64,000 nt of DNA from Negativicutes bacterium (GTDB lineage: Bacteria; Bacillota; JAAYKD01): contig JAJFTT010000067.1 of NCBI GenBank assembly GCA_021372785.1, positions 1 through 64,000 of the forward strand. The letters are read 5' to 3'. The position numbers were made by a program, and so were the translations under genes. Each line of letters opens with the position of its first letter. Within the stretch, counting starts at the first letter, position 1. Under the pieces are notes generated by a model, which worked only from the letters and a program-made list of their open reading frames with translations, was not told where the DNA came from and did no database searches. Of this stretch, positions 19,436 to 48,467 are shown piece after piece.

Positions 19436-19984
19436 TTGATTCAAACTGCAATTTTAGGTTTGCTGAATAAAAAAGCCATGTCGGGTTATGATTTAAAAAA
19501 AGCCATGCAGGATTCATTGATTATGTATTGGTCCGGCAATAATAATCAGATTTATAAAGTCTTATTGGAATTGAAAAATCAGGGTCTCGTCAGCTGCCAG
19601 ACCGAACATCAGGAGAGCGCTCCCTCCAAAAAAGTCTACACCATCACCGCTCAGGGCCGCATCACCCTGCAGGAACAACTCTGCAGCCTGCCGATTGAGC
19701 TGCCGGAATTTAAAAAGCCGTTTCTGATTCAATTTGCCAACGCCGACGTGCTGAGCAAAAGACAGTGGCAGGAACTGATGCTGAATTATCAAACCGAGCT
19801 GCGCAATCAGTTGCTCTTACAAAAACGAAAACAGCAGCAGGAATTGGAACAGACAAACTGCTCCGCAGAGGAGCATTGGCTTGCTGCCATGCTTTATGAA
19901 AATATTATTGGCTTTTATCAGACAGAATTGAACTGGACTGAGCGAGTCCTCTGGGGACAGTCAAATTTACGACAGGAGGAATGA
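19436..19984 (+). CDS. PadR-family transcriptional regulator
   Basis: The 182-residue protein has the PadR winged helix in residues ~1-80: LGLLNKKAMSGYDLKKAM, then NNNQIYKVLLELKNQGLV and a wing reading KKVYTITAQGR. A C-terminal helical dimerisation domain follows (PadR subfamily 2 size). PadR proteins usually repress a neighbouring gene and are released by small phenolics, drugs or stress signals. The TTG at 19436 fits the family N-terminus (IQTAILGLL) and follows AGAAGGTG; the ATG at 19412 is about where transcription would begin. Its stop overlaps an ATG of the EF-Ts-like gene. Confidence 0.88.
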   Translation: MIQTAILGLLNKKAMSGYDLKKAMQDSLIMYWSGNNNQIYKVLLELKNQGLVSCQTEHQESAPSKKVYTITAQGRITLQEQLCSLPIELPEFKKPFLIQFANADVLSKRQWQELMLNYQTELRNQLLLQKRKQQQELEQTNCSAEEHWLAAMLYENIIGFYQTELNWTERVLWGQSNLRQEE

Positions 19985-19989
19985 ACAAG

Positions 19990-20862
19990 ATGAATTTGGA
20001 AAATATCAAAATTTTACGGCAGGAAACCGGCGCCGGTGTGCTGGACTGCCGGCAAGCGCTGCATACAGCCAATGATGACCTGAAAATCGCCATGTCGATT
20101 TTAATTGAAAAAGGATTCCATTTAGCGCAAAAAAAGGAGAATCGCATAGCGGCAGACGGCATTGCTTTTGCCGGTGTCTATGGCCCACGCGCTGTCTTGC
20201 TGGAAGTCAGCTCGGAATCCGATTTTGTAGCCGGCAACGCCTTATTTATTGCCAATGCCGAGCAGATCGCGCGGGCAATTGCGAAATATCGCCCAGCCGA
20301 CCCGGAACAGCTGCTGCAGTGCCCCAGCGATGACCCGGACCTGACAGTGCGTCAGCTGATGCAGAAAATGGTCCTGATGTTTAATGAAAAAATCGTCATC
20401 CGCCGTTTTCAGATACTGAACGGTGACTTTCCGATTGCCTTTATGCATCAGAACGGTAAATACGGTGTTATTCTCAATCTAAGCGTTGACCACCCCATCG
20501 AGGCGTCGGCTCTTCAATTGATTGGCAAGGAAATTGCCATGCAAATCGCCGCGATGCAGCCCAAGTATCTGACCCGCGAGCAGATCCCACCGGCAGCTTT
20601 GGCGGCAGTCCAAGCGCAACTGCAGACAGAGCTGGAATTGGAACAAGCCATGCATAAAAAACCGCCTGCTGTCCTGGCAAAAATCCTGCAGGGGCGCCTG
20701 GAGAAATTCTACCGGGAGAACTGCTTATTGGAACAGCAAACCATCAGAGATGACAGCATTACAGTCGCTCAGTATCTGGCGGCAGCCGGCAATGCGCTGC
20801 ATAGTAGGATCCAAGTCACCGAGTTTTACCGCTATCAAAAAGCGGAAGAACCCGGCAGCTGA
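19990..20862 (+). CDS. tsf: Elongation factor Ts homologue (probable paralogue)
   Basis: The 290-residue protein is a full-length EF-Ts, the nucleotide exchange factor of EF-Tu. The N-terminal UBA-like segment reads LRQETGAGVLDCRQAL, and the core contact reads ESDFVAGN (canonical TDFVAKN), keeping the Asp-Phe pair. EKIVIRRFQ and IAMQIAAMQPKYL follow, with EGRL-like QGRLEKFY and LLEQQTIRDD near the C-terminus. Many usually conserved positions differ. It is not next to rpsB, as the housekeeping tsf nearly always is, but forms a two-gene unit with a PadR regulator. I therefore infer a second, regulated copy. The ATG at 19990 is preferred: AGGAGG is ten bases upstream, whereas it abuts the ATG at 19981. 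Confidence 0.88.
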   Translation: MNLENIKILRQETGAGVLDCRQALHTANDDLKIAMSILIEKGFHLAQKKENRIAADGIAFAGVYGPRAVLLEVSSESDFVAGNALFIANAEQIARAIAKYRPADPEQLLQCPSDDPDLTVRQLMQKMVLMFNEKIVIRRFQILNGDFPIAFMHQNGKYGVILNLSVDHPIEASALQLIGKEIAMQIAAMQPKYLTREQIPPAALAAVQAQLQTELELEQAMHKKPPAVLAKILQGRLEKFYRENCLLEQQTIRDDSITVAQYLAAAGNALHSRIQVTEFYRYQKAEEPGS

Positions 20863-23599: not shown

Positions 23600-26500
23600 C
23601 TAGACCGGAGGGCCAACCAAGGTCCCCTGCTGCTTCTGAATATTGATTGTGTTTGTTGCAGAAATCAGGGCATTGGCTGCATTTTCTACTTCTGTCTGTG
23701 TGGCATTGTCGTTAGTGATCACAGCCATCGCTTCATCAAAAATATCCTGATAAGCTTCATAAGCAGAGAAGCTTACCCAAAAGGAGGAGTCTGGAACATC
23801 CGTTCCGTTTTCGCTGGGTCGCAGCGACGACAGTACTGAATCAGCTGCCCGCAGCGCATTGTCTAAAGCTGACTTATCAACTCTGCCATCCAAATCCGGA
23901 TCATGGGTGATGGTATGACCGTCTGTCACTGTCAAATTGGCTGCATTGACATTTCTGATGATAGTCACATCGGAATCGACTACGCCGCTGACGAGAAAAT
24001 CACTAAGGCAGCGTTCGTTGTCACCACCGATAATCACTAAATAAGGTACCGCAACACCTGGTGTTTCGAAAACCAGGCTGACGTCGGCCGGACAATACCA
24101 CATTTCATAGCGTTGGAAGGCAGCGACAGCAGGGACTGTCAGCGTTTGGACATTGCCAAAAATGGCGAAAGCCACGAACCGGTCTGCTGTCGCACACTCA
24201 CTATGCTCTCCCGTGTAATCCTTAGGATGATCCACACCGCAATTCCAATAGATGTTGCTGCCAAAATGGTAATCCACCTCATTGCCTGTCGGGGGAATGC
24301 TCTGCACTTTCACCAAATTCAAAGTATACCAATCACCGACACAGTAATTTTCAATCATGCAGTTGACTGCGGAAGTCACCGTTGTGCCGTTACATAAACT
24401 ATAGAGTGTAATTGATTTATCGCCATCCAGAGGATTGAGCGAAGTTCCTGCCTGCAGGCTGATACCACCGGGAACGTAAGCGCCGCGCAGATCCACGTCA
24501 AAACTGATGGTATTCAAAATCAGGGTCAGACCGGCGGAGAAAGAGCAGTTGTTGAAGGTAAGGTTGCCACCCCAACTATAATCTGCCGTAGGATCAAACG
24601 GCGTGCTACAAGTAACCGTGACCGGCATGGTGAAGTTCTTATTGTTGATCACCTGGTCAAAATCGGGAGAGACCACAAAACTGTTGATCCCGGATTCAAC
24701 TTGGGAGTACGGTTCAAGTGCGCTGACAAAATTTCTCAGGTATTCGCGCATTAATCCATCAGGAACTCCATTATTTGGCGCAAATACAGTCCCCTCATAA
24801 TCCGTGATGACACCTGTTTCAACCATTTTAATCACAGCAGCGTAATAAGGCTCCGTTCCCACTAGATCGCTGAAATTCGGCACTGTAAAGTTGCCAGTTA
24901 AGTGATGTGCCAGCTTTGCATCAAGCTGATCCAGGATAGCCGCAATTTCCGCCCGCGTCAGCATGTTATAGGGTTTGATTTCATTCGCTGTTCCGCTGAT
25001 CAAGCCGTGCTTTAAAAGGAACGCCATTGCTGCTTGCTTATCGGCTGACATTGCTGTCCAATCGGCGCTGTAACTCAGACTGTAGCTAGCGATTTCTTCC
25101 TGGGTAGGAGCTGCCAGACCATAACCATCTTGGAATGCCGCATAAATCTGGCTCGCCACATCAACGCGGTTGACCGCAGGAGGCAGATAATTCAGCCAGG
25201 CATAGACAACCGTGATCACCTGATTGTTCTTTGTCCAGGTCACCGTCAGGCGGACATTATAAGGGTTCGTAATCGGTGTCGAGACACTGGGATTCAGGTG
25301 AGTCTTGTCTGCAAAATACTCTGGCGTGACCGTGAGCGGCTGCCAATAGCCATCGGGATGGTTCTCATCATAGAGGATCTGCTCCACCGTATAAGCATAT
25401 TCCGTAGCGTTGGCTGTGCCAATATAGACGCCGTAATCACCGGCATTACCAAAGACATGCGGTGCATCGATGGCAAAACCCGTCTCTGTCTCTGTTTGGT
25501 TGATCACAAAGTATTGATCCGGCTGCTCTACAATGATTCTGGCACCGTTCCCAGCGTTGATACCGATGGTTACATTACCGTAATTGACAATGGTAACTTC
25601 CTTTGCGCCGATTGTGGTCAGACTATCGCCCGCCCAGGAAGCGCTGAGCAAGACAGAACCCGTCACATTGACAGCAGAGATATCATAGTTACCGATCACC
25701 ACCAGATCCCCTGTCACAGTTCCGCTGACTGCACAATTGGCTGTTGTGCTGCTGGTTAGGAAAAGGTAACCGATCGCCGGTTCGATGCTTCCCAAAGACA
25801 AGGACGCGCACGTGCAATCCTTTGTCATTTCATAGCGATAAATACCGTTCGTTCCGCTTTGCGTGGCAACAACCTCTGCAGAACCGGTTTTACCCCAGAG
25901 CAGCATTGACAGATAATGCTTGGCCAATTCGGATCTTGGATTGTTGCGGTCCTTCACACAATTGGTATGGTCGCCGATATAGTTTTCGGCATGATCCCCG
26001 TTGCACTCCCACATTATCTGGGCGCCAAAAGGATCATTCGCCGGGGCAGTAGCAGCCTTCGTTATTTTCACCCCATTCAGCGTGAAATAGGTGTTGGCTG
26101 TCTTGCAGGCTGCATTGACATTCACAGTGGAATTGACGGTCATACCATTCTCAATGCCATTGATATCAATCCGCAGCGGTGAATTAAGCTGAACCGGTGC
26201 AGGTTTAATGCTTTCATCCAACACAGCGTTGACTGTTTGACTCAAAATCGTGACTCCATCCAAATTGACTGCAAAGCTGCGATCACCCAATTTCAGCGTC
26301 AAACCACTGTTAAAGTGACAATCGGTGAAGCGAATTTCTCCGCCCCAGTCCCCGCTTTGCCCCGGTTCACAAGTGACGATGACCGGGTTGCTAAAGGTTT
26401 TGCTCTGCACCGTTTGGGATTGATTTTTAGATACTATAAAACTCGCCTGGCTTGAGGGAATCGGACCGATGATTGACTGTAATGAAGTAATGAGGCGCGC

Positions 26501-29500
26501 CAGATCGTCGGCTGAAATTTCTCCCGCGGGGTTGAAATGGCCGTCGCCACCGCCGATTAAACCGGCCTTGGTCAAGGTCATCACCGCGGTATAGAAGGGA
26601 TCAGTAGAAATCACATCATAGAAAGAAATCCCTGGCTCAACATTCTGCGGCCATCCATTTTTTAAAACCTCAACTATTCTCAGCTGTTCGCCTAAATTGT
26701 AAACCAGAATCGCCGCATCGCTTCGGTTGAGGCTGCGGTAAGGATCCACAAAGTGTTTATTCGCATCCTCCCCACTGCCTGCTGTTGCTGTGATGATCTG
26801 ATAGCAGAGCAGAAAAGCCATGGCGGCCTGAGCATCTGCATCCGCTTCCATCAGACACCAATCGGCATATGCTGCATAAGCTGTCAGCTCGTCGCTGTTG
26901 GGTTCCGCCAAACGATAATCCTGCCGGAATGCCTGATGGATCAGTTTCGCTGCTCCGCTGAGCGTCACCGGGGCTTGTTTATACTCTAATTGCCACCAAA
27001 TCACCGAGATGGTGCCGGCAGAAGTCGTCCGTTCAATCGTCAATTCCACTTGATAGGGATTTCTGATCTGACTGGTTGGCAGCAAATACGTACTGAGACC
27101 ATCCGATGCTGTTGCTTGCGTAAAGGTGATTTCTTCCGGAAGAGGTTGCATCGAACTATCATCAAAATAGTATTGCCATAATTCGAAGCGATACTCGGCC
27201 GAAGTATATAATCTGTCGAGGTTAATGCCATATCCGATCTCGGTGTCAAAGACTACCGGCCTACCAAGCAGGAAACCACCATCCGGATCTGAGGCGTTGA
27301 TGCTGACTGTCTGGTTCGGCTGCTCCAGATTGACGATTGCACCCAGCAATGCGGTAAGCGCAACCGGTATGTTATTGTAGCCGATGATCGTGACCATTTG
27401 GCTGCCGATGGCTACCGCGGTATTTTCCTGCCAGGCTCCGATCAGGATCGGACCGTTGGGATGCTGCAGCGCTGTGATATCCACTTTGCCGCAAACCACC
27501 GTCTCCGCCGTCAGAATAGTGCCGCTCACTGTCAATAATCTGCTGGAATTTCCATTCAAATTAAAGAAGGTTTTCGAAGGCTGCAGAGTGCCTAAGGACA
27601 AGGTCACATCCTGAGATTGCTCCGATACCCTAAAACTGCAAATATCCGTCAGGGTAGGAGGTGTCCCTGCCTGGAGCACTGAGACACTCTTGACTTTGCC
27701 GTTGATGGCAAAAGCAAGATAATGATCCGCTGGTTCGGTCTCGGCAGGGGAACTTCCTGGATTTTTGATACACTCCTCATGATTCCCGAAATAACCCGGT
27801 TCATGATAACCATTGCACTCCCAGTTGAGGTTGGCGCCAAACCACTCCGATTCACCGATTTGGTCGGCCCCGAACACCTTGAATCCATTGAGCGTAATGC
27901 TGCCGCCGGCCAAATTGGAAGCAATGCCAGTTGTCACGCTGGACTCCACTGCGATCGACTCTGGCAAACCATTGATTTGGAGATTGACTCTGCCATTGAA
28001 TTGGTAAGCCGCATTCGAAGCTGCTGCGTCTACTTTGATGAGGTTATCTTTGACACTTGTCGTGCCGGCGAAATTGAGATTGTAGCGCACTTCACCTAAA
28101 TATGCCTGTAAGCCGCCATTGAATTGGCAGTTGACAAAGGTAATCTGACCACCACCGGCATCGCTCTCCCAATCAGCGGAGGTAATGACCACCGGAGTAC
28201 CCGAACTGAAGATCTTATTCGTAACTGTTTGTTCTTGATCCGGTCTGACGATAAATGATGTTTGCGTGGAAGTCGCCGGACCCAAGGCATTGACAAACCG
28301 GATGATTAATTCATTCGTTTGATTGGACAGCATTCTTTCATCGGGATAGAAATTGCCTTGATTGTCCCCGCTGACAACGCCGGCTCTGGCTAAGGTCATG
28401 ATCGCCATATCGTTTAACGCTTGCCCATCTGTCACATCGTGGAAACTGATATTGACCGATTGATCTAAGCTGCTTAATCGATTCAACGCGATGATCGACT
28501 GATAGAGAATCACGGCTGTTTCGGAACGTGTCAGATCATTATACGGCAGCAGATTTGTGCCTGCGGCTGGGTTGAGAATGACGTTCTTCAGCAGGAAGGC
28601 CAATGCTTCCGAGCCTTCCCCGTCATTCGCCAATTGCGCACGGTCCTCGAAACCACTCAAGAGCGTTTCTACTTCAGATGGGATAGCAGTTGTATCAACA
28701 GAAGCAAGACCATACCCCTCGCTGAGCGCTGTATAAAGCTGCATCGCCAGATCACGGCGGTTGAGCGCCGGCTGTTTATAATACAAATTCGGCCAAACGA
28801 TGGTGATATCGGTGTTTGCATCCGGCTGCCAGTGCACGGTCAGGCGCACGGCAAACGGATCGGTGATCTGGCTTTCTGGATCCGGAATCAAATGTGTTTT
28901 GTTCTCTGCGGGCTGGTAGTCCGTGATATATTTGATGGCCACCGGTAGTTCTCCATTCATCGTGCGCTGCTCCAGCAGATATGTGCAGGTTTGTAAGGGA
29001 GCGCCCATCAGATAAACCCCATAATTACCAACATCACCAAAGACATGCGGACCACCGAGACTGAATGTGTTGTTCGCTGTGTAACTCACCGCCACATCCT
29101 GCATGGATTGCTCGACAATGACCGTTGCACCGCTCTCCGCTTGAATTAACGTCGGATCAGTGCTCTGTCCGTTGACGGTGACCGTCAGACTGCCAATGGC
29201 AATCTGATTGCCGTTATTCCAGGCAGCCAGATAAATTTGGTGGTTTGGATTAAGCAAAGCAGAAAGATCGACCTTACCACTGATCTCGACATCTGCCGAT
29301 ACCTGCCCGCTCAGCGTTAAAGTTTTACCGAATTTCTGATTGCGATTGTTGATCCGCAGACGATCCATGCTGACGGCTACGCCATCGGCAGGGAAGTTCA
29401 AGCTGATATCGCTCGAGTTATCCCACATTTCATAATTTCCGAAGACGGCACTTGCACTTACCTCTACTGTCTCTACCGCATCATAGAACGCAAGCGCAGT

Positions 29501-32500
29501 AAACTGGCTGCCACTGCAGGCACTATGATCACCCTGATACTGTTCCGGATGGAAAGAGTAGCATTCCCATTTCAGATAGGCACCAAAAGATTTCTTCTCA
29601 CCTAAAACAGCAGAACCTCTGACGGTGATCCCATTGATCACGAAGCTGCCTGCCTCGATACCGCAATTGACTGCGGTAGCAGCATCGGAGCGGATTTCGG
29701 TTCCATTTGCCACATTATTCAGATTCACATTCACATTCTGCTGGAATTTGTTGTTTGCATCGCTTCTGCTGACTTGAATCCCGCCTGTAACAACAGATCT
29801 GCCCAAATCGATGTCATATCTGACCAAGCCCACCTCGGCAGTCAGTCCAGCAGCAAAGGTGCAGTTGCTGAAGCGAATCGAACCACCATAATCGTCGTTC
29901 GGATTGACTGGTGTACCGCAGGTAATGTTGACTGTATTGGTGAACTTTTTGTTTTCTATCACCTGTTCACCATTCCGTAAAACAGTAAAACTTTGCTGAG
30001 TAGAAGTAATCTGACCCAAAGCCATTACAAAACGATGCACCAGATCGCTCAATTGACTGCCCCAATCATACCAGGTGGCATCCATGGCAGCATTCGGGTT
30101 AAAATTGCCGCCCGTGTCGCCTTGGATCACACCGGCTTTGGCCAGCCTCAGCACAGCTTGGTAGTACTCCTCTGTACCGTTCAAATCATTGAAGACAGGA
30201 TTCGGAACTATCGTTTGATCCAAGCCGGTGATCGTTTGCTTCCCAATCAGGACGGTTTCCAGCTTGATCAGCAGCATCGCAGTCTCCGCGCGGCTGAGAG
30301 TCGCAAACGGTTGGATATATTTCTTCAGAACGTCGTCACCCAAACCAGCTACACCTGTGATGATTCCATTCTTCAGTAGGAAGGCTATTGCCATAGTATT
30401 TTCAGTTTGGTCGTTAGGGTTGCTGCTCTTAGGGATGCTGCTCCAATCGGCATAAACTCCTGCATATTCATTGATGTCTGTCTGAACCGGCAGGTCCAGA
30501 CGATACCCCTCTTTCAGCTGCTGATAAATTTGCTGCGCCGCATCGAGCAGGTTGGCATTATGATGATAAGTGATATTGGGTTTGCTGCCATTGATGGCGG
30601 AACCGCTCTCGAAAACCGCACGACCATAAACATCCAGGTTGCTGTTGTTGGTCAAGACGGAACCGTTCATAAAGGATAAGCTGCCGTTGACCGTGACTTG
30701 AATTGATCCATTATTGATCAGCGTTCCCCAGACGGTAGATTGACTGTTATCAATGGTGTAACCAATACTTTCTGCGATCGTCAGCGTAGTTCCGGCAGAA
30801 ATTAATAATTGCTTATTTAAAGTATCATTTGCAGTAATTGCAAAATCACCTGCCGTCACAACCTTCTGAACCAAAGCGTCCGTAAGCGCGATCTGAAATT
30901 GCGCATAAGTCCCTGCTGAGGCAATGACAGACGACAATCCTGCGGTTAAAGCATTGACCGCACTGAGGCACTCACCACTCGCCGCACTGATCAGGCCATT
31001 GGGATTGAGTGTATTCTCTGTTCCCAGTGTGATGACACCGGCATTCGCCAGATGGAGCGCCTTCTGGTAAAGAGGATCACTCGAGTTCAGATCAGTGATT
31101 CCTTCAATCGTCACAGTTTCCCGCAAGTGCACACCCACAGCCTCTTCCAGGTCTGTCAGCAGGTAGACGAGATCGGCTCGGTTGATGGCTGCATTGGGTT
31201 CCATCCGCTGTTGATTGCCGATTTGACCCCTGCCGTTGATCAGGCGATAGTGATACAAGAAGGCAAAGGCAGATCTCTGTTCCGCTGTCATGTTGATTGT
31301 TTCAACAAAATTCGCCATTTCTGCAATTACAGCACTTGAATCCAAAGGCAAGTAACCAAATTTGCCCTGCAGGCTGTTAGCCAGTACCATCGCCAGCGAA
31401 CCTCTGGTTTCGCTGGCTGTGAAGGTTACCGTAATGGTTTTCTCGTTGCTCGTATGGCCTATACCGTCAGCAATTTGCACGGTGTAACCGCCACTGACTG
31501 AATCAGTAATTGTTACACCCCAGAGTGGGTTTCCACCGGCATTGATTATTTGACGGGATACAACCTCTTTCACAAGCTTCATTTTTTCAGCAGCAGTGGC
31601 GCCTGCTTTGACTTCCAAACTGAAATCGCTGACAGCCGCCAACACAGCATCCAGACTGTCATTAGCGCACGGAACCGCATCAATCAATACTTTGGCTTCC
31701 TGTAGCAAACCAAGGTGCTCTCCATCACCGTTGATTTCTGCAACCGTCACCGCTTCACCGAGTGAACGGGACCAGACGGCGCGAATACTCACTATTTTCA
31801 GCAACATGGTGGAGGTATAGTCTGCAACGCCGTATTTTAAGCCTGTTGCTTGATTGACAGGCCAATAGGAACTAATCTCTCCGATGCCGGACTGAATCGC
31901 CAGCCTTAATTCGAATTCCTGTTTATCCGCGTTGGTCCTCAGAGAACGGATTGTTCTTTCCGCCGTTTGCCAAGCTCCGGAAATTTGTTCCGGTGTTACT
32001 GCTGCATTGATAAACGTCTTCATTGCATTCAGCGTACTATGATAGACTGTCCATTCGGAGCCGCTGTAATTCCCCTCATTCAATTCTGCCGCAGCGATAA
32101 AGTTCAGTGCATCCGTGCGATAGTTTTCCAGAGTGGATTTGCCCCCCACCACGACATCCAGATCCACGATCGCTCTTCTGCCAAAGATGAGCTGAACTCT
32201 TTGTGGGGTCGCTAAGTTTGAATTGAACCCGATTGCCACAAGGCCGTCCGTCAAATGACCATCGGTCATCATCGGTACGGTTTGTTCTCTCGCTATCCCC
32301 TGATAGGCGACAGCCAGAATCCCACCGTTTAGATCCAATGGATTGCCGATCTGGTAGGTCAGTTTCGTCGGGTATTGAACGATTCGGATCTTCTCTACTT
32401 CATAGGCATTGACCACATTGATGAGAAATTCTACGCTCTGCTGACTTTCCTGATGCGTTACGCGCAGCGTATAGCTGCTTGCACTATTCAGCAAGGGCAT

Positions 32501-34447
32501 ATCGGTTCGGAAATTTTGATTGCCCTTCACTTCTTCATAACGAGTAATGGGTGTGCGGATTACGCTGCTCGTACCCGGCATATAGACCAATTCAACCATC
32601 ATGCCGCTATAATCCATTGTCTCATTGACTTTATAGGTTGTTTTTCTTGGTAATTCCACAATATTCATACCAACAAAGACCAAATCGTTGCTCGAAGCAG
32701 GCGCAGTAGCATCTCCTTCACCAATTCTCATTTGCAGTCCGGAGGAATTATTGCTGTCAAAAACATTACCAATCAGGCTGTTTTGACTGCTGCCGGTCGG
32801 CAGCAGCAGCTGACTTGGCAGCGGTGAGTTATTGATCAGGGATCCCAGCTGACCGTTTAGATTATCTGTTCCACCCAAAGTGAGTTGACCGGCACTATTG
32901 TTGCCAAATTGCACAAACTGCGCAAAAACTCCCGGTCCAAGATGGATCGGCACAAAGGAACCGGTACCATTCAAAATAGAGATACCACCTAAATTACCGC
33001 TGCCGCTGGTCAGGATACCGCCAACACCGGAACCGCTCATGACCGTAAAAGAAGGTCCGCTCGAAGCCGATAAGGCAAGCAGGTTCAGGCTTAGTGACTG
33101 CATGGCCGGTTCGCTGGTCTGCATTTCGACGCTGCCAATTTCATTCTCGCCGTTTTCAGACGCCGCCAAAATCGCGGTTGCCTCACCGCCCAGTGTTAGT
33201 TTTTTAATCTTACCGCTCAGTGTGGTTATGCCGCTGCCCAACAAGGTTAAATTCGGCGCCGAATCGAGCGCAGCGGCATTGACCTGTGCGCTTTGCAGCC
33301 TTCCGGCAATCACAGCATCAGCATTGGTCGTTAACGCAGTAATGCTGGTTCCCGCATCGGCCTGCAAGGCGGCGGTCATTGTGACAGTGCCGATTTCTGT
33401 TATTCGCTGCAGCTGCAGCGTCTGGCTGCTGTCGATCAGGTTGATTTTATTCTCTGTATTGAGGTAGAGCGTTTCACCCGTGCTGATGCGCGCTGTACGT
33501 AAATCGTCAAATAAAGTTTCCGCCGCAGCAAAAGTGCTGACCTGTTTTCCAAGTGTTGCCGAACCAACCGCCGCTTCGGTCGCTGGAGCGACCGTCAGAT
33601 TCTGCACTTCGCTCTGATACAAGCCTACCTGCAGCGCCTGCAGATCGCCTGCCTGCGCAGTCAGTTGGCCAACCTTGGTATTGATCAGCTGCAGATTTTG
33701 CCCGGCTGTGATATTATTAATCGTATTCTCGCTTTCGGTCAAGCTGACAATCACCGCGCCGGCGCTGCCTAAAACCTCGGCGGATTGAATATGTGCCTGT
33801 TCTTCCAGGATCAATTGCAGCGGCTCTGCGCTGACACCTTGCCGATTCAGCACAACTTTTCCTGCCACTGTCGTGCTGCCGGTCAAAGACACCGCTTGGT
33901 TCGCTACGGTCAACAAACCGAGCGATTGAGGCGCGATACCGCCCGCGATGGTTAGATTGCCGCTGATGTACATATCAAGCAGCGTGACGGGAGCAGTAAG
34001 TGCGCTCTCTAGAATCGTCACGTTGGCATAGCTGCCGTTATAGCTGCCAGCTGTATCAATCGTAAGCAGCATCCCAGAGGTGATCATTTCCTCGGCCGTG
34101 AGCAGAGGTTTACAGCCGTTTGTATTATTATCCAAGAGGAATGCCTTGACACAATTGAGAGTACCGCTGGGGAAATCGAGAGTGATCGACCAGCTGCCGT
34201 CTGCCGCATCCTGAGTAACGTCTTTTACATCCGTCATTTTTCCGTCGGCAGTATAGGCAGCAACCAGCAGTTGCGCTGAGCCGGCTTCGCTCAGAGTTCC
34301 GCTCACTGTGACGCCGCCATTTAAGATATTTGCTTCCGTGATTGCCAGCATTGGTACAGCAGCAAACACTGCCCCTGATAAAGGCAGCGACACCAACAAC
34401 AGGCAGCTGATCCAGATTGCGACGATAACTTGCTTTGACCACTTCAT
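23600..34447 (-). CDS. Giant secreted modular SLH-repeat protein (3615 aa)
   Basis: A signal peptide (MKWSKQ, then VIVAIWISCLLLVSLPLSG and AVFA) targets it outside the cell. Residues ~30-580 are repetitive, beta-strand-rich and low in charge, suggesting a beta-helix. Residues ~586-703 hold two bacterial Ig-like (Big_3-type) domains. A FIVAR-like helical segment follows at ~773-846, then a first SLH pair at ~1053-1173. Four tandem ~600-residue modules fill ~1290-3500, each with an SLH-like pair, a T-S-x-Q-x-S-F beta domain and a C-x3-H-x7-H-x2-C motif. The last ~85 residues form another FIVAR-like helical unit. SLH repeats bind secondary cell-wall polymers. I know of no matching characterised protein. 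The start at 34447 has GAGGGGAG upstream, and the gene stands alone. Confidence 0.85.
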   Translation of the reverse strand: MKWSKQVIVAIWISCLLLVSLPLSGAVFAAVPMLAITEANILNGGVTVSGTLSEAGSAQLLVAAYTADGKMTDVKDVTQDAADGSWSITLDFPSGTLNCVKAFLLDNNTNGCKPLLTAEEMITSGMLLTIDTAGSYNGSYANVTILESALTAPVTLLDMYISGNLTIAGGIAPQSLGLLTVANQAVSLTGSTTVAGKVVLNRQGVSAEPLQLILEEQAHIQSAEVLGSAGAVIVSLTESENTINNITAGQNLQLINTKVGQLTAQAGDLQALQVGLYQSEVQNLTVAPATEAAVGSATLGKQVSTFAAAETLFDDLRTARISTGETLYLNTENKINLIDSSQTLQLQRITEIGTVTMTAALQADAGTSITALTTNADAVIAGRLQSAQVNAAALDSAPNLTLLGSGITTLSGKIKKLTLGGEATAILAASENGENEIGSVEMQTSEPAMQSLSLNLLALSASSGPSFTVMSGSGVGGILTSGSGNLGGISILNGTGSFVPIHLGPGVFAQFVQFGNNSAGQLTLGGTDNLNGQLGSLINNSPLPSQLLLPTGSSQNSLIGNVFDSNNSSGLQMRIGEGDATAPASSNDLVFVGMNIVELPRKTTYKVNETMDYSGMMVELVYMPGTSSVIRTPITRYEEVKGNQNFRTDMPLLNSASSYTLRVTHQESQQSVEFLINVVNAYEVEKIRIVQYPTKLTYQIGNPLDLNGGILAVAYQGIAREQTVPMMTDGHLTDGLVAIGFNSNLATPQRVQLIFGRRAIVDLDVVVGGKSTLENYRTDALNFIAAAELNEGNYSGSEWTVYHSTLNAMKTFINAAVTPEQISGAWQTAERTIRSLRTNADKQEFELRLAIQSGIGEISSYWPVNQATGLKYGVADYTSTMLLKIVSIRAVWSRSLGEAVTVAEINGDGEHLGLLQEAKVLIDAVPCANDSLDAVLAAVSDFSLEVKAGATAAEKMKLVKEVVSRQIINAGGNPLWGVTITDSVSGGYTVQIADGIGHTSNEKTITVTFTASETRGSLAMVLANSLQGKFGYLPLDSSAVIAEMANFVETINMTAEQRSAFAFLYHYRLINGRGQIGNQQRMEPNAAINRADLVYLLTDLEEAVGVHLRETVTIEGITDLNSSDPLYQKALHLANAGVITLGTENTLNPNGLISAASGECLSAVNALTAGLSSVIASAGTYAQFQIALTDALVQKVVTAGDFAITANDTLNKQLLISAGTTLTIAESIGYTIDNSQSTVWGTLINNGSIQVTVNGSLSFMNGSVLTNNSNLDVYGRAVFESGSAINGSKPNITYHHNANLLDAAQQIYQQLKEGYRLDLPVQTDINEYAGVYADWSSIPKSSNPNDQTENTMAIAFLLKNGIITGVAGLGDDVLKKYIQPFATLSRAETAMLLIKLETVLIGKQTITGLDQTIVPNPVFNDLNGTEEYYQAVLRLAKAGVIQGDTGGNFNPNAAMDATWYDWGSQLSDLVHRFVMALGQITSTQQSFTVLRNGEQVIENKKFTNTVNITCGTPVNPNDDYGGSIRFSNCTFAAGLTAEVGLVRYDIDLGRSVVTGGIQVSRSDANNKFQQNVNVNLNNVANGTEIRSDAATAVNCGIEAGSFVINGITVRGSAVLGEKKSFGAYLKWECYSFHPEQYQGDHSACSGSQFTALAFYDAVETVEVSASAVFGNYEMWDNSSDISLNFPADGVAVSMDRLRINNRNQKFGKTLTLSGQVSADVEISGKVDLSALLNPNHQIYLAAWNNGNQIAIGSLTVTVNGQSTDPTLIQAESGATVIVEQSMQDVAVSYTANNTFSLGGPHVFGDVGNYGVYLMGAPLQTCTYLLEQRTMNGELPVAIKYITDYQPAENKTHLIPDPESQITDPFAVRLTVHWQPDANTDITIVWPNLYYKQPALNRRDLAMQLYTALSEGYGLASVDTTAIPSEVETLLSGFEDRAQLANDGEGSEALAFLLKNVILNPAAGTNLLPYNDLTRSETAVILYQSIIALNRLSSLDQSVNISFHDVTDGQALNDMAIMTLARAGVVSGDNQGNFYPDERMLSNQTNELIIRFVNALGPATSTQTSFIVRPDQEQTVTNKIFSSGTPVVITSADWESDAGGGQITFVNCQFNGGLQAYLGEVRYNLNFAGTTSVKDNLIKVDAAASNAAYQFNGRVNLQINGLPESIAVESSVTTGIASNLAGGSITLNGFKVFGADQIGESEWFGANLNWECNGYHEPGYFGNHEECIKNPGSSPAETEPADHYLAFAINGKVKSVSVLQAGTPPTLTDICSFRVSEQSQDVTLSLGTLQPSKTFFNLNGNSSRLLTVSGTILTAETVVCGKVDITALQHPNGPILIGAWQENTAVAIGSQMVTIIGYNNIPVALTALLGAIVNLEQPNQTVSINASDPDGGFLLGRPVVFDTEIGYGINLDRLYTSAEYRFELWQYYFDDSSMQPLPEEITFTQATASDGLSTYLLPTSQIRNPYQVELTIERTTSAGTISVIWWQLEYKQAPVTLSGAAKLIHQAFRQDYRLAEPNSDELTAYAAYADWCLMEADADAQAAMAFLLCYQIITATAGSGEDANKHFVDPYRSLNRSDAAILVYNLGEQLRIVEVLKNGWPQNVEPGISFYDVISTDPFYTAVMTLTKAGLIGGGDGHFNPAGEISADDLARLITSLQSIIGPIPSSQASFIVSKNQSQTVQSKTFSNPVIVTCEPGQSGDWGGEIRFTDCHFNSGLTLKLGDRSFAVNLDGVTILSQTVNAVLDESIKPAPVQLNSPLRIDINGIENGMTVNSTVNVNAACKTANTYFTLNGVKITKAATAPANDPFGAQIMWECNGDHAENYIGDHTNCVKDRNNPRSELAKHYLSMLLWGKTGSAEVVATQSGTNGIYRYEMTKDCTCASLSLGSIEPAIGYLFLTSSTTANCAVSGTVTGDLVVIGNYDISAVNVTGSVLLSASWAGDSLTTIGAKEVTIVNYGNVTIGINAGNGARIIVEQPDQYFVINQTETETGFAIDAPHVFGNAGDYGVYIGTANATEYAYTVEQILYDENHPDGYWQPLTVTPEYFADKTHLNPSVSTPITNPYNVRLTVTWTKNNQVITVVYAWLNYLPPAVNRVDVASQIYAAFQDGYGLAAPTQEEIASYSLSYSADWTAMSADKQAAMAFLLKHGLISGTANEIKPYNMLTRAEIAAILDQLDAKLAHHLTGNFTVPNFSDLVGTEPYYAAVIKMVETGVITDYEGTVFAPNNGVPDGLMREYLRNFVSALEPYSQVESGINSFVVSPDFDQVINNKNFTMPVTVTCSTPFDPTADYSWGGNLTFNNCSFSAGLTLILNTISFDVDLRGAYVPGGISLQAGTSLNPLDGDKSITLYSLCNGTTVTSAVNCMIENYCVGDWYTLNLVKVQSIPPTGNEVDYHFGSNIYWNCGVDHPKDYTGEHSECATADRFVAFAIFGNVQTLTVPAVAAFQRYEMWYCPADVSLVFETPGVAVPYLVIIGGDNERCLSDFLVSGVVDSDVTIIRNVNAANLTVTDGHTITHDPDLDGRVDKSALDNALRAADSVLSSLRPSENGTDVPDSSFWVSFSAYEAYQDIFDEAMAVITNDNATQTEVENAANALISATNTINIQKQQGTLVGPPV
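23900..25180 (-). repeat. Giant protein 1, module 4 (shortened)
   Basis: The module starts at VASQIYAAFQDGYGLA. The SLH pair, paired Cys (TVTC ... FNNC) and CHHC motif (residues 3401-3418, W-N-C in place of W-E-C) are kept. The final aromatic beta segment is replaced by a short linker with D-P-D-L-D-G-R-V-D and the C-terminal FIVAR-like helices. Confidence 0.75.
25181..26972 (-). repeat. Giant protein 1, module 3
   Basis: About 597 residues from AAKLIHQAFRQDYRLAEP. The SLH pair reads AMAFLLCYQIITAT and LIGGGDGHFNPAG. Paired Cys (IVTC ... FTDC) are present and the CHHC motif is at residues 2813-2830. Confidence 0.8.
26973..28775 (-). repeat. Giant protein 1, module 2
   Basis: About 601 residues from LAMQLYTALSEGYGLA. 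It has the same order as module 1, with the CHHC motif at residues 2209-2226. The first Cys of the beta-domain pair is replaced by Ser (VVITS), while the second (FVNC) remains. Confidence 0.8.
28776..30570 (-). repeat. Giant protein 1, module 1
   Basis: About 598 residues, starting at LLDAAQQIYQQLKEGYRL. It contains an SLH pair (AIAFLLKNGIITG; GVIQGDTGGNFNPNA), the Q-Q-S-F-T-V beta domain with paired Cys (NITC ... FSNC) and the CHHC motif at residues 1627-1644. An aromatic beta segment ends in NLYYKQPA. Boundaries are approximate. Confidence 0.8.
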
Positions 34448-34623
34448 TTTCCTTACTCCCCTCGTGTCAGGCTGAATCATCAACCAGCCATTCTTCTTAA
34501 AAAGTGCTTTTGGTTTTCGCTTTTTGATCAGGTGCGTTTACCAATTATTGTTGTAAATATTTCTCCTGTATTGGCAGGTTTCCTTCTTTTATCAGAAGAA
34601 TTTTGATCTTTTTAAAATAAAAA

Positions 34624-34715: not shown

Positions 34716-35615
34716 TCATTTTTTCTCTGAAAGCAAATCGCGATATTGTCTGTAAAATACCTCTGGCCGCAGAAAGAGCGCCTCATTCACCGCGGATGAC
34801 CCATAGGTTTGATTGATCCGGCGGATCAGGGCACAGCCAACGCGATAAGCATAACGGTGTTGACCAAAAATGAAATCGATCCAGTCCTCATCAGATCGAT
34901 TGTCACTGTTTTCAAAACTTTCCAACGTTTGCAGGAAAGACAGAATCGATTGCTCTAGTTGTACCGGGTTCTGCAGCACGAGGTAGTCTTTGATGGTAAA
35001 GCAACTTTCATCCGGTTCGATTCCTGCCAGCAGACGTGCATTTAGGGAACTATAGGTTGCATATCCTTCATTTTGCACTGCCCAAGCAAGCATTTGCAGC
35101 CACTGTGACTTCGTTTTGGCTGCTTTTAAATCCGGCACAGGCTGATACTTCTCATAGGCTGCGTGAAAGCACTCATGCATCATCATATAGAGAAATTCAT
35201 TTTCATATTTCAGATAACCGGCGTAGTTGAGATTCATGGGAACTTGCCCATGCAGTCCAATGCCAACATCATAACCGATCACAGGATAAACGGTAATCTC
35301 CCCGAGATCTTCCGGTGGAAAGAGAACCTGCAGAGCTGCCGCCGTTTGCTTGAGTAAGCTTTCCTGTTGTGATTCCAAACGTTCCAGAGTGGTTTTTATA
35401 GCAGGCAGATTTTCCTGTAGGCCCCGCAAACCAAAAAAAGGGGATGGCTCCTGGCGCACTGCCGTCTTGATATCCTCCGGAGTCAATCCGGCCGCAAATT
35501 GTCGGTTATGTTCAAAAATCGTTTGATAGCCGGGGTGCCGCAGCAATTCATCCAATTCACATCTCCCTTGCAGCCAATCCAGAAAGAGTTTCGCCCCATC
35601 GAAATTCATTTTCAT
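34716..35615 (-). CDS. Putative zinc metallopeptidase (HEXXH, zincin fold)
   Basis: The 299-residue protein contains MMHECFHAAYEKY, an HEXXH zinc motif inside a helix near residue 142. NEGYATY follows 36 residues later and offers a glutamate third ligand, as in gluzincins. No signal peptide or membrane segment is seen, so it is probably cytoplasmic. I do not recognise the exact family, and the substrate is unknown. The start at 35615 is chosen over nearby TTG/ATT options because AGGAGGA is at suitable spacing. It is the third gene of an operon with rnhA and mutT (gaps 3 and 13 nt). Confidence 0.75.
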   Translation of the reverse strand: MKMNFDGAKLFLDWLQGRCELDELLRHPGYQTIFEHNRQFAAGLTPEDIKTAVRQEPSPFFGLRGLQENLPAIKTTLERLESQQESLLKQTAAALQVLFPPEDLGEITVYPVIGYDVGIGLHGQVPMNLNYAGYLKYENEFLYMMMHECFHAAYEKYQPVPDLKAAKTKSQWLQMLAWAVQNEGYATYSSLNARLLAGIEPDESCFTIKDYLVLQNPVQLEQSILSFLQTLESFENSDNRSDEDWIDFIFGQHRYAYRVGCALIRRINQTYGSSAVNEALFLRPEVFYRQYRDLLSEKK

Positions 35616-35628
35616 GATCAAGATCCTC

Positions 35629-36015
35629 CTAGCTTTCTTGCATGAGCAGGGCAAGAATCGCTGCATCCGCCGGGCAAAAATCATATTGCCTTAAATCGCC
35701 CAGCCGCACAAAGCGAATCTCATTGTGTTCTTGCTTTTTCGGCTCACCGCTGAGAATATGGGCACGATAAAAAGTCAGATGCACGGTAAAAGCAGGATAG
35801 GAATAAGTCGTATCCGTGATTTCTTTTTCAATTGCCAATTCAATCGCTAACTCTTCGTGGCATTCCCGCAGCAGGCATTCGCGCAGCGTTTCTCCCGCTT
35901 CCTGTTTGCCGCCCGGAAATTCCCAAAGCAAGGCGCAATTCTTGCCTTCTGGGCGCTGGCAAATCAGAATTTCATTCATTTCATTATAGATCAAAGCGGC
36001 AGCGACTTCTAACAT
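35629..36015 (-). CDS. NUDIX hydrolase, MutT-like
   Basis: The 128-residue protein carries a complete NUDIX box: G-G-K-Q-E-A-G-E-T-L, then R-E-C-L-L-R-E-C-H-E-E-L at residues ~35-56. LLWEFPGGK precedes the box, as in MutT 8-oxo-dGTP diphosphatases. It likely removes oxidised nucleotides, or acts on a related (d)NTP. It lies 3 nt after rnhA. Confidence 0.9.
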   Translation of the reverse strand: MLEVAAALIYNEMNEILICQRPEGKNCALLWEFPGGKQEAGETLRECLLRECHEELAIELAIEKEITDTTYSYPAFTVHLTFYRAHILSGEPKKQEHNEIRFVRLGDLRQYDFCPADAAILALLMQES

Positions 36016-38103: not shown

Positions 38104-39792
38104 ATGAGTTTTTTTCGTAAAAGTTCAAAAGAAAAAACGCTTCAGGAAACTACAGTCCCAGACGAGCAGTCGGCATCCCGGGAAACCGAAGACAGCTCGG
38201 ATTTTTCGGCGGCAATAAAAGTAAAAAAAGAAAAAAAGAAGTGGCCCGGCTTCTTAATTGCCGTCTTATGTATCGCTCTTGCCGTGGTTGGTATCGTCTA
38301 TTATCAAAAAAATAAGCAATCTGCCGACAACAAAAACAGTGCTTCTTATTCCTACTATACCGTAACAAAACAGGATCTTGTTTCTTCTCTCAGCAGCAGC
38401 GGAATGCTGCTGCCTGCTGATTCTTATAAAGTTACCACTTTGGTCAGCGGAGAGGTTTTGAGTTCGAATATTAACGAGGGCGATATTGTAAAAAAGGATG
38501 CGGTGCTTTATCAAGTGGATAGTTCTGCCATCAGCAATACGATTGCCCGAGCTGAGTTGACGCTGAGTCAGAGTCAGAAAAATTATGACCGCAAATTGGC
38601 GAGCTTAGAGGACCTCAATATTACCGCAAGCGAAGGCGGCACGGTCATTGAATTATTGGTGAAAACAGGTGACAACCTGAAAAGCGGCCAAAAAGTAGCG
38701 ACACTGCGCAACAGTAGCGTTATGCAGTTAACGTTGCCCTTTAACTCGGTCGATAGCAAAAGCTTTTATCTTGGCCAACCTGCCCAGGTTACGCTGGACA
38801 GCAGTTACGAAACCTTGAACGGCACGATTCGTCAGATTTCTGCGGTCGATCAAATCATGAGCGGCAATATGTTGGTCCGTCAAGTAACAATCGATGTTGT
38901 CAACCCGGGTGCTCTTTCTCCCCTGCAAAGCGCTACGGCGATGGTGGGTGATGTTGCCTGCAATGCAAAAGGTAATTTTGCTTACGCCAGTGAAACCACA
39001 ATCACAACTTCCGTCAGCGGGGAAGCCGCAACTTTGCTGGTAAAAGAAGGCGATTTTGTCACTGCCGGTCAATTATTGCTTACACTGACCAGCACAATTC
39101 TGCAGGACGACCTGGAGAATGCGGCCAACTCACTCAAAGATGCTGCTTTGGCTGTACAAAACCAGTACGATAATCTGAATTCCTATACCATAAAATCGCC
39201 GATTGCCGGAACCATCATCCAAAAAACCGCCAAAACGGGTGATAAGCTTTCCCCTAATGCAGCTTTGTGTACCATCTTTGATTTGTCTTATTTAACTTTA
39301 ACTTTGAATATTGATGAATTGGACATCAGCAGGCTTGCTGTGGGTCAAACCGCCACAATCACAGCCGATGCGGTGGAAGGAAAGACCTACACAGGAACCG
39401 TTACAAAAGTCAGTATCGCCGGGACCACCGCCAACGGCGTGACCACTTACCCAATCACCATTCGGATTGATCACACCGAAGGGTTGTTGCCCGGTATGAA
39501 TGTGACTGCCATGATTACCTTTGAAGCGCGCAAGAATGTGCTGGTAATACCGATCGCCGCGATCGTGCGCGGCAATCGTGTCTTGCTGAAGTCGGAGGCT
39601 GCAGTCCAAACTCCGGACCAAACCTCCGATCCAACGATCCCAAAGGGATATCACTATGTTGACGTGAACATCGGTATCAACAATACGGATACCGTTGAAA
39701 TCACCGCCGGCCTCAGTGAAGGAGATGTCATTGCGGTGAAAAACAGTTCTACTGCTCCTCCTGCGGCACAGAATCCTTTCGGGCTGCGCTAA
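38104..39792 (+). CDS. Efflux periplasmic-adaptor (membrane fusion) protein, MacA-like
   Basis: The 562-residue protein has a 47-residue charged cytoplasmic N-terminus and one transmembrane helix at ~48-67 (GFLIAVLCIALAVVGIVYY). HlyD-type adaptor domains follow: two biotinyl-lipoyl-like halves (residues ~100-200 and ~295-370; IKSPIAGTIIQKTAKTGDKL), a short coiled segment and beta-barrel domains. In Gram-positives such adaptors pair with MacB-type ABC transporters to export peptides, lipids or drugs. GGGAGAAAGG lies upstream of the start, and it heads a four-gene operon. Confidence 0.9.
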   Translation: MSFFRKSSKEKTLQETTVPDEQSASRETEDSSDFSAAIKVKKEKKKWPGFLIAVLCIALAVVGIVYYQKNKQSADNKNSASYSYYTVTKQDLVSSLSSSGMLLPADSYKVTTLVSGEVLSSNINEGDIVKKDAVLYQVDSSAISNTIARAELTLSQSQKNYDRKLASLEDLNITASEGGTVIELLVKTGDNLKSGQKVATLRNSSVMQLTLPFNSVDSKSFYLGQPAQVTLDSSYETLNGTIRQISAVDQIMSGNMLVRQVTIDVVNPGALSPLQSATAMVGDVACNAKGNFAYASETTITTSVSGEAATLLVKEGDFVTAGQLLLTLTSTILQDDLENAANSLKDAALAVQNQYDNLNSYTIKSPIAGTIIQKTAKTGDKLSPNAALCTIFDLSYLTLTLNIDELDISRLAVGQTATITADAVEGKTYTGTVTKVSIAGTTANGVTTYPITIRIDHTEGLLPGMNVTAMITFEARKNVLVIPIAAIVRGNRVLLKSEAAVQTPDQTSDPTIPKGYHYVDVNIGINNTDTVEITAGLSEGDVIAVKNSSTAPPAAQNPFGLR

Positions 39793-39793
39793 G

Positions 39794-40555
39794 ATGATGA
39801 ACAATAGCGCTAATACCATAATCCCCGGGTCGGTAGGCTCAGCCAAAATGGTTCCTCTCATCGAATTTCATCGGGTCTATAAAGTCTATACCATGGGTGA
39901 AACTGTCGTGCGAGCCATTGATGGAATTTCCCTGCAGATCTCACAGGGTGAATTTGTCGCAATTGTCGGACCGTCCGGCTCGGGAAAAACCACCTGTATG
40001 AATATTATCGGCTGTTTAGATGTTCCGGATTCCGGACAGTATTTGCTGGGCGGGCAGGATGTCGGACAATTAAGCGACAATGCCCTGGCGGTAATCCGTA
40101 ATAAAATGATCGGCTTTGTTTTCCAGCAGTATAATTTGCTGCCTCGCTTAACCGTAGAAGAAAACGTGGAAGTTTCACTGATTTATGCCGGCGTCGGCAA
40201 ACAGGAACGCATCAAACGTGCCCGTGATGTTTTGAGTCGTGTCGGTCTGTCCGATAAACTAAAAAGCCTGCCCAATCAGTTATCCGGCGGGCAGCAGCAG
40301 CGCGTCTCAATCGCGAGAGCCTTGGTTGGCAATCCTTCTGTGATACTGGCCGATGAACCAACCGGCGCACTGGATTCCAAAACCGGGATGGATGTTTTGC
40401 GTTTATTACAGGAATTGCATCAAGACGGTAATACAGTTGTTTTGATCACGCATGACAATGGAATTGCTGCCCATTCCGAACGCACCATCCGCCTGTCGGA
40501 CGGAAAAATCATCTATGATGGCCCCACGCAAAGAGAAAGCGGGGCAAGTTTATGA
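39794..40555 (+). CDS. ABC transporter ATP-binding protein, MacB/LolD type
   Basis: The 253-residue ATPase has Walker A GPSGSGKTT (residues 59-67), the signature LSGGQQQRV and Walker B VILADEPTGALD with an H-loop ITHD. It belongs to the LolD/MacB/FtsE branch, which energises extraction or export from the membrane. It begins 1 nt after the adaptor stop. An internal ATG (MVPLIEFHRVYKV) 19 codons in also fits the family start, so the first residues are uncertain. It overlaps the permease by 4 nt (ATGA). Confidence 0.93.
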   Translation: MMNNSANTIIPGSVGSAKMVPLIEFHRVYKVYTMGETVVRAIDGISLQISQGEFVAIVGPSGSGKTTCMNIIGCLDVPDSGQYLLGGQDVGQLSDNALAVIRNKMIGFVFQQYNLLPRLTVEENVEVSLIYAGVGKQERIKRARDVLSRVGLSDKLKSLPNQLSGGQQQRVSIARALVGNPSVILADEPTGALDSKTGMDVLRLLQELHQDGNTVVLITHDNGIAAHSERTIRLSDGKIIYDGPTQRESGASL

Positions 40556-41742
40556 GCATTGTACAGTCATTCCAAATGGCGATTAAAAATATCGCTACCA
40601 GCAAGTTCCGCTCTTTACTTACTATGTTGGGTATCATTATCGGCGTGGCAGCGGTCATCATCATTGTGGGTTTAGGCAATGGTGTGGAGATTTATATGAC
40701 CAGCGCTTTTCAAAGTCTGGGAACCAACTTATTGACCGTCAATATCAGCGGGCGCGGTTCTACGCGCAGCATTTCTGTCGATGAAATCTATACGCTCATC
40801 GAGCGCAACCCAGACTTGCTGCAGTCTGTTTCTCCCACAGTCGCGGTCAGCGGAACCGTTAAAATCGGTTCCGAGAGCGTCGGCACCACCAAAGCTACCG
40901 GTGTGAGTGAAGATTATGCACGGATGAAAGATTATTCCCTAAAAGCAGGCCGCTTTCTGGAATATGTGGATATCCTCACCCGACAAAAAGTCTGTGTCAT
41001 CGGCAGCTATTTAGCAAAAGAGTATTTTAATAACAATGCTGTCGGCGAAACATTGCGCATCGGCGAGAACACTTACTCCATCGTCGGTGTTTTATCGGAA
41101 AAGGCCGAAAGTGCAGCGGCCAGCAGCGACGATGCCATCTATCTGCCCTACAGCGTTGCCGCCAAATTATCCAGGACAGGGATTAATACTTACAATATAG
41201 CCGTGACTTCGCAGAACACGGTAACTCAAGCAAAAGAGTTGGTCGAAGACGCACTTTATAAAGTATTCGGCAGTGATACAGCTTACAGAGTAATCAGCAT
41301 GGCGGAAATGCTGAGCACAATGACGAGTATGATCAATATCGTAGTCCTGGTTCTGGGGACTATCGCCGCCATTTCCCTGGTGGTCGGCGGAATTGGCATC
41401 ATGAATATCATGCTGGTTTCCGTGTCGGAACGTACGAAAGAAATCGGCATCCGCAAAGCATTGGGTGCCAAGCAACGCAATATCATGGAACAATTTGTCA
41501 TAGAAGCCGGCACAACCAGCGGTTTGGGCGGTGTGATTGGCATTGTTTTTGGTTATGTTCTTTCGTCGGTGGGATCCCAGGTACTTTCTGCCGTAGTTTC
41601 TACAGAAATCACCATTACTCCCTCCGGCTCTTCGGTACTGACTGCTTTTGCTGTCTCTGTAACAATCGGTATTGTCTTTGGTTACCTTCCCGCCCGAAAA
41701 GCGGCCCGATTGAATCCCATTGAAGCACTGCGCTACGATTGA
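40552..41742 (+). CDS. ABC transporter permease, MacB/FtsX type
   Basis: The 396-residue membrane protein has the MacB layout. An N-terminal helix (SLLTMLGIIIGVAAVIIIVG) is followed by a ~200-residue extracellular domain (MacB_PCD). Three C-terminal helices (FtsX domain) follow, including SERTKEIGIRKALGAKQRNI between helices. The C-terminal PARKAARLNPIEALRYD is typical. It completes the exporter with the two upstream genes. Confidence 0.93.
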   Translation: MSIVQSFQMAIKNIATSKFRSLLTMLGIIIGVAAVIIIVGLGNGVEIYMTSAFQSLGTNLLTVNISGRGSTRSISVDEIYTLIERNPDLLQSVSPTVAVSGTVKIGSESVGTTKATGVSEDYARMKDYSLKAGRFLEYVDILTRQKVCVIGSYLAKEYFNNNAVGETLRIGENTYSIVGVLSEKAESAAASSDDAIYLPYSVAAKLSRTGINTYNIAVTSQNTVTQAKELVEDALYKVFGSDTAYRVISMAEMLSTMTSMINIVVLVLGTIAAISLVVGGIGIMNIMLVSVSERTKEIGIRKALGAKQRNIMEQFVIEAGTTSGLGGVIGIVFGYVLSSVGSQVLSAVVSTEITITPSGSSVLTAFAVSVTIGIVFGYLPARKAARLNPIEALRYD

Positions 41743-41758
41743 TGAAAGGACAAATGGA

Positions 41759-47588: not shown

Positions 47589-48467
47589 ATGCGCAGCGAG
47601 CAGGAAATGCTGGATTTGCTTCTCAGCACAGCCGAACACGATGAGAGAATCCGTGCGGTTTATCTCAACGGTTCCCGGGCAAATGTCAAGGTCCCGAAAG
47701 ATATCTTTCAGGATTTTGATATCGTTTATGTGGTCACGGAGACCGCTTCCTTTTTAGCCGATCCCCATTGGCTCAAGCGGTTTGGTGAAATCCTGATTAT
47801 GGAAGAACCGGATCGCCTGGATCGGGCCTTGGGACAACCCCGCGATTTCTCAGAGCGCTATGCCTGGCTGATGCAGTTTACCGACGGCAACCGCATCGAT
47901 CTTTCTATCCTGACCAAAGCGGCGATGCGAAAAGAATTCGGTCGCGACAGTCTGAGCGTTGTCCTGCTTGATAAAGAGGCGCTGCTGCCGGAAATCCCGG
48001 CTGCCAATGACGGCGATTATCTCGTACAGCGGCCAAGCCAGGCGATTTTTGATTGCCGCTGTATCGATTTTTACTGGGTGGCGCCGTACATCGCCAAAGG
48101 ACTTTGGCGCAATGAATTGCTCTACGCCCTGGATTATTTTCAATCTCAAAAAGTTAAGCTGATCACTATGCTGAACTGGCAGGTCGGTACGGAAACCGAC
48201 TTCACGGTTTCCACCGGAAAATCCGGAAAATATCTGAAAAATTATTTGTCGCCGCAAACCTGGCAAAAATTGCTGGCAACCTACCCCGGCAGCGAGGAAA
48301 CCGCACTTTGGCAGGCCTTATTTACGATGATGGACTTATTTGAAGAAACCGCCCAAACGGTGGCGGTACGGCTGCAGTTTTCTTATGATCAAAGATTAGC
48401 CCGCAACAGTAAATCTTTCGTCCGCCATATTTACGAACTGCCCCGCAACGCCAAAGAGATTTATTAA
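47589..48467 (+). CDS. Aminoglycoside 6-adenylyltransferase-like nucleotidyltransferase, ANT(6) family
   Basis: The 292-residue protein aligns by eye along its whole length with ANT(6)/AadE. The start MRSEQEMLDLLLSTAEHDER and the nucleotidyltransferase motif YLNGSRANVKVPKD...FDIVYVV (catalytic D-x-D-like) fit. IKGLCR-type AKGLWRNELLYALDYF and LNWQVGTETDF also fit. This family adenylylates streptomycin, but chromosomal homologues are common in Bacillota and may not confer resistance. GAAGGAG precedes the ATG. It is a lone gene, 145 nt after the peptidase. Confidence 0.9.
   Translation: MRSEQEMLDLLLSTAEHDERIRAVYLNGSRANVKVPKDIFQDFDIVYVVTETASFLADPHWLKRFGEILIMEEPDRLDRALGQPRDFSERYAWLMQFTDGNRIDLSILTKAAMRKEFGRDSLSVVLLDKEALLPEIPAANDGDYLVQRPSQAIFDCRCIDFYWVAPYIAKGLWRNELLYALDYFQSQKVKLITMLNWQVGTETDFTVSTGKSGKYLKNYLSPQTWQKLLATYPGSEETALWQALFTMMDLFEETAQTVAVRLQFSYDQRLARNSKSFVRHIYELPRNAKEIY

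Follow-up and report, generated by a model that had tools for sequence, protein, structure and literature searches.

The window analysed here, a stretch of 64,000 nucleotides, carried on its minus strand a giant gene (23600..34447) coding for an SLH surface protein of 3,615 aa, counted from an ATG at 34447; all features of this protein given below lie on the same strand. The ORF was intact, its frame being open across 3,627 codons from 34483 to 23600, with a TTG at 34483 as the upstream limit. The ATG at 34447, residue 13 of this longest frame, was the likely start codon, and an AAGGA-like, purine-rich ribosome-binding sequence was placed directly upstream of it. The translation and its profile matches revealed, in this order, a hydrophobic signal peptide judged by eye (MKWSKQVIVAIWISCLLLVSLPLSGAVFAA, 34358..34447), a long beta-repeat region, Big_3-like segments, a FIVAR-like helical stretch, SLH-like pairs and four modules. 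At the C-terminus, a FIVAR-like stretch (23642..23758) matched PF07554 with an E-value of 5e-4 and 21.1 bits, the Pfam cut-off being 29.2. An early segment, in the N-terminal part of the protein (31502-34447), resembled a segment at the C-terminus of a subtilase-like ORF found elsewhere in the genome (contig C53, 12098-12385; 35% identity, E 1.1e-4) and, by eye, also the C-terminus of a second giant ORF at 49866. From its sequence, the segment common to these ORFs is perhaps a surface or sorting module.

Several other genes were observed in the window. The second giant surface-type ORF (49866-63998, minus) had an open frame of about 8,740 codons that ran off the contig end (to 76096); by eye, it presented Ig/FN3/CARDB-like repeats and was Cys-poor, with 12 cysteines in the 4,710 residues within the window. 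A gene for a DUF5700 putative zinc-dependent peptidase (34716-35684, minus) lay next to the giant SLH gene, on its upstream side. On the plus strand, a MacA-like adaptor, an ABC ATPase, a MacB-like permease and an SLH protein were encoded in a row (38104-43642), the first three representing a putative export system adjoining the SLH protein. The gene at 47589-48467 (plus) matched the streptomycin adenylyltransferase family (PF04439) strongly, with an E-value of 2.4e-109, and an EF-Ts family gene (19981-20862, plus) did not adjoin rpsB but followed immediately on a PadR-like regulator.

The giant protein was recognized by the SLH profile PF00395 with an E-value of 1.9e-30 over five stretches, above the curated cut-off, the single matches scoring between 21.5 and 36.6 bits. 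These stretches were located before module 1 (30083..30193, 36.6 bits), between modules 1 and 2 (28334..28408, a partial match of 26.6 bits), between modules 2 and 3 (26513..26626, 29.1 bits) and between modules 3 and 4, where a pair spanning 24767..25054 was composed of 24941-25054 (21.5 bits) and 24767-24877 (28.0 bits). The SLH units were recognizable as pairs and not as trimers; by eye, most pairs carried a T-R-x-E-like motif in their first member, and in none did the second member have T-R-A-E. In characterized cases, it is SLH trimers that bind pyruvylated wall polymers (PMC6081394). The dispersed pairs suggest an attachment to the wall at multiple points, with the beta modules looping out between them. 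Moreover, several SLH proteins were encoded in this genome, which is 97.5% complete and gave no Omp85/BamA match in a search whose control was positive in 7 of 14 named genomes. Therefore, judging from gene content, a monoderm organization is most likely, and the giant SLH protein is probably extracellular and exposed on the wall. The absence of Omp85 also led to the rejection of a diderm organization with periplasmic placement. The secreted cell-wall protein of the original prediction is thus supported by the signal peptide recognized by eye, the SLH domains and the lack of Omp85.

The same prediction had described four extracellular modules of about 600 aa each. A repeated module was confirmed, and the fourth copy proved to be truncated at its C-terminus. 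Modules 1 to 3 were each composed of an all-beta domain of about 270 aa carrying the conserved Cys and His residues (the Cys/His domain), an Ig-like beta-sandwich and an SLH pair; the fourth one had neither the Ig-like domain nor the trailing SLH pair and ended in the FIVAR-like stretch. The stretches with the Cys/His domain were delimited by alignment at 29033..29989 in module 1 (row 1 of alignment A1), 27281..28243 in module 2, 25484..26431 in module 3, here with the aid of a structural model as well, and 23801..24667 in the shortened module 4. The AlphaFold2 model obtained from the four-row alignment predicted an all-beta, solenoid-like Cys/His domain (pLDDT 82.7, pTM 0.84), while a second model, comprising 591 aa of module 3, was poorer (pLDDT 66.4), with an SLH part of low confidence. 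Strands E308-E416 of this second model corresponded to the Ig-like beta-sandwich of module 3 (25184..25510), whose homologous region was found in modules 1 and 2; Foldseek returned Ig-domain matches for it with probabilities up to 1.00 and a best E-value of 0.011. For the Cys/His domain itself, a right-handed beta-helix of known type was not retrieved from PDB or BFVD, there being no Foldseek match with E <= 0.001.

The element that had drawn attention to these modules, W-x-C-x3-H-x3-Y-x-G-x-H-x2-C, occurred exactly four times in the giant SLH protein: WECYSFHPEQYQGDHSAC (29516..29569, residue 1639 of the longest ORF, or 1627 from the ATG), WECNGYHEPGYFGNHEEC (27770..27823, residue 2221 or 2209), WECNGDHAENYIGDHTNC (25958..26011, residue 2825 or 2813) and WNCGVDHPKDYTGEHSEC (24194..24247, residue 3413 or 3401). 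A rescan returned the same figures as reported before for the copies counted from the ATG, including their spacings of 582, 604 and 588 residues. A six-frame scan of the whole window revealed no C-x3-H-x7-H-x2-C outside these copies, and the back-translated DNA pattern of the motif gave 4 matches in the window versus 0 in 100 dinucleotide-preserving shuffles. The first model put the motif loop at the solenoid edge, with strands on either side, and the loop was among the weakest interior parts (pLDDT 59-64); over the two models, the block of the loop ranged from about 51 to 64. In both models, built on different modules, a strand ended on the first Cys, and a short helical turn came just before the last.

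The four modules were true homologues with pairwise identities of 24-33% outside the motif, a divergence that indicated that the repeats are old. C, H, H and C were kept with exact spacing in 4/4 copies; the two His were the only His positions common to all four modules, and of the invariant Cys columns, three in the whole domain, the motif held two. Of 254 gap-free columns, 30 were invariant and 7 of them fell in the 18-residue motif, which corresponded to a post hoc hypergeometric p of 0.002 and to p = 0.12 for such a cluster when shuffles were corrected for scanning. A second block, GG-x-[IL]-x-F-x-[ND]-C-x-F-x2-GL, presented, in a window likewise of 18 columns, a density of invariant columns equal to that of the motif; its first Cys was absent in module 2, the adjacent Cys being kept. 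Consequently, the claim that the rest of the module had drifted while the four Cys/His never changed stood for the invariance of these residues and failed for their exclusivity, since the second block resisted drift equally and the scan-corrected p was 0.12. Selection on the motif alone, with another part of the domain equally invariant, was therefore not demonstrated, and the evidence of conservation comprises four paralogous copies, because no homologue is known outside this protein.

In fact, within the collections searched, the domain bearing the motif is known only from this protein. No Pfam or NCBIfam family covered the motif, in line with the earlier remark that no described domain with this spacing was known to its author, and no zinc-finger or metal-binding Pfam profile matched over it. 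Searches of the Cys/His domain retrieved nothing meaningful from PHROGs, no PDB profile match and no significant Foldseek match, the TM-scores being mostly 0.1-0.3. The sets searched by profile comprised 150 and 399 relatives, 399 genomes of the phylum, and the order and class, the class being represented by four genomes in the collection. The three remaining genomes of the class yielded no homologue of the domain, and neither did the samples of about 400 genomes of the same phylum. Weak profile matches (E 0.08-6) were discarded, being short fragments that did not contain the motif; the sequence most similar to the motif lay in a 59-codon frame and had C-x2-H instead of C-x3-H, and a hint of a GH30 C-terminal domain (E 0.015-0.24) was below the cut-off, covering residues after the motif in one module only. 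Degenerate peptide scans of the collections of genome contigs and of viral contigs for the motif, as well as tblastn of the domain against plasmids and phages, returned nothing. At the DNA level, the exact motif had 16 matches in 85,000 GTDB species genomes and 2 in IMG/VR, all 18 in frames of 15-122 codons and several with stops within the motif; these outside matches were attributed to chance because all lay in such short frames. The assembly yielded no 16S rRNA.

The explanation that we favour, with confidence evenly divided between accepting and doubting it, is a new orphan surface domain with a Cys2His2 metal-binding loop, probably holding structural zinc. The SLH-anchored giant protein would display an undescribed all-beta domain of solenoid-like form in four copies, in each of which a loop of 16 residues would leave a beta strand with the first Cys at the strand end (C-x3-H), continue through a Y-x-G turn and finish in H-x2-C on a helical turn. 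The loop would fold around one metal ion, most likely structural Zn2+, with 2 Cys and 2 His as ligands. Outside the cell, under reducing and probably anaerobic conditions in which a disulfide could not be relied upon, this ion would hold the loop together like a staple, and the loop so fixed might offer a contact surface on a beads-on-a-string wall protein. Metal binding, zinc, the stapling role, an anaerobic life and any contact function are thus what we infer for this system. Pairs of ligands spaced as C-x3-H and H-x2-C are well known from zinc sites. Moreover, the Cys/His domains were rich in Cys, with 27 in 1088 residues (2.5%) versus 8 in 2539 (0.31%) in the rest of the protein and 12 in 4710 (0.25%) in the neighbouring giant ORF (Fisher p = 1e-8 for the enrichment). 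The low predicted confidence of the loop, a record of conservation made up of four paralogous copies and the equal invariance of the second block count against this explanation. As to the earlier idea of a metal-binding or redox knuckle, the conservation of the Cys/His is compatible with a putative metal site; its haem variant is unlikely, as no C-x2-C-H was present.

The main rival to this metal loop is a disulfide between the motif cysteines that closes the 16-residue loop, with the His residues taking part in folding, in the sensing of pH or in contact with a ligand and with the binding of any ion incidental, an alternative that we regard as real but rather unlikely. The strict C-x14-C pair, the export of the protein and the presence of further Cys in the domain are in its favour, together with a W-x-C-x14-C spacing that recurs unchanged in LDL-receptor class A (LA) modules, at their calcium loop; there the two cysteines are the fourth and sixth of the module and are disulfide-bonded. 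The only sequence matches to solved structures were, in addition, weak ones of the motif to VLDL-receptor LA modules, although the best E-value of 2.2 was not significant, and the calcium ligands and intervening Cys of LA were absent in the motif loop. The other cysteines of the domain were not conserved in pairs, and the counts per domain were often odd (5, 5, 8, 9). Neither DsbA nor VKOR had a family match in the 97.5% complete genome; the oxidase search covered these two families, so that oxidative folding by SdbA-type (thioredoxin-like) oxidases may still occur, and the absence could be due to the missing 2.5% of the assembly. With no such match, machinery for oxidative folding is not evident from the genome sequence, which disfavours the disulfide. 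Also against it, obligate anaerobes tend to exclude Cys from their exported proteins (PMC12453122), the anaerobic lifestyle of this organism being an assumption.

The absence of any special site, the four residues being kept by structural packing of the loop like those of the GG-F-C block, seems improbable. The equal number of invariant columns in that second window and the scan-corrected p = 0.12 for clustering speak for such packing; the low identity of the modules outside the motif speaks against it, as does the fixation of 2 Cys and 2 His in a single 16-residue loop, unlike what generic packing conserves. A catalytic or haem/redox site, operating by thiol/His chemistry or electron transfer, is very improbable. 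No residues are found more often in catalytic and redox roles than Cys and His, and the position predicted for the loop, at the solenoid edge with strands on either side, might suit such a site; however, no invariant acidic residue was present in the domain except D241 of alignment A1, and neither an enzyme-family match nor a significant fold match was obtained. Inspection showed that C-x2-C-H was missing from all four loops, and a haem site was rejected on this basis.

If the metal-loop explanation is true, an external loop would be stabilized or equipped by a metal instead of a disulfide, and this through deep divergence, in contrast to the cysteine avoidance usual in the exported proteins of anaerobes. 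It would also define a new domain family, whose reach is limited for now, no relatives having come to light beyond a single genome in a class of four. The full combination of an extracellular metal-binding domain with a relative-less beta-solenoid-like fold and a Cys2His2 loop pinned by zinc or another transition metal, repeated fourfold on a monoderm surface, is proposed tentatively and is held to be somewhat doubtful.

Regarding known systems, CHHC zinc fingers of the U11-48K type have ligands ordered Cys-His-His-Cys, the same order as in the motif, but their spacing differs and they are intracellular and eukaryotic. The LDL-receptor class A modules, represented in PDB by VLDLR chains, share the spacing of W and the two cysteines through the non-significant match described above. 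In contrast to them, the motif loop has two cysteines only and not six, is devoid of the DxSDE calcium ligands and carries His where LA has an acidic ligand; the families listed for the Cys/His domain with E <= 10 did not include PF00057. Bacterial beta-solenoid adhesins, such as the binding region of the L. reuteri SRRP, which gave a weak Foldseek match, are alike in their repeated short strands and extracellular location, although none reached the E-value threshold of 0.001. Finally, the SLH-domain surface proteins of Gram-positive bacteria, such as SpaA/SlhA of Paenibacillus alvei (PMC6081394), share with the giant protein a signal peptide and several SLH domains; there the SLH domains form one terminal trimer, whereas here SLH pairs are spread between large beta modules.
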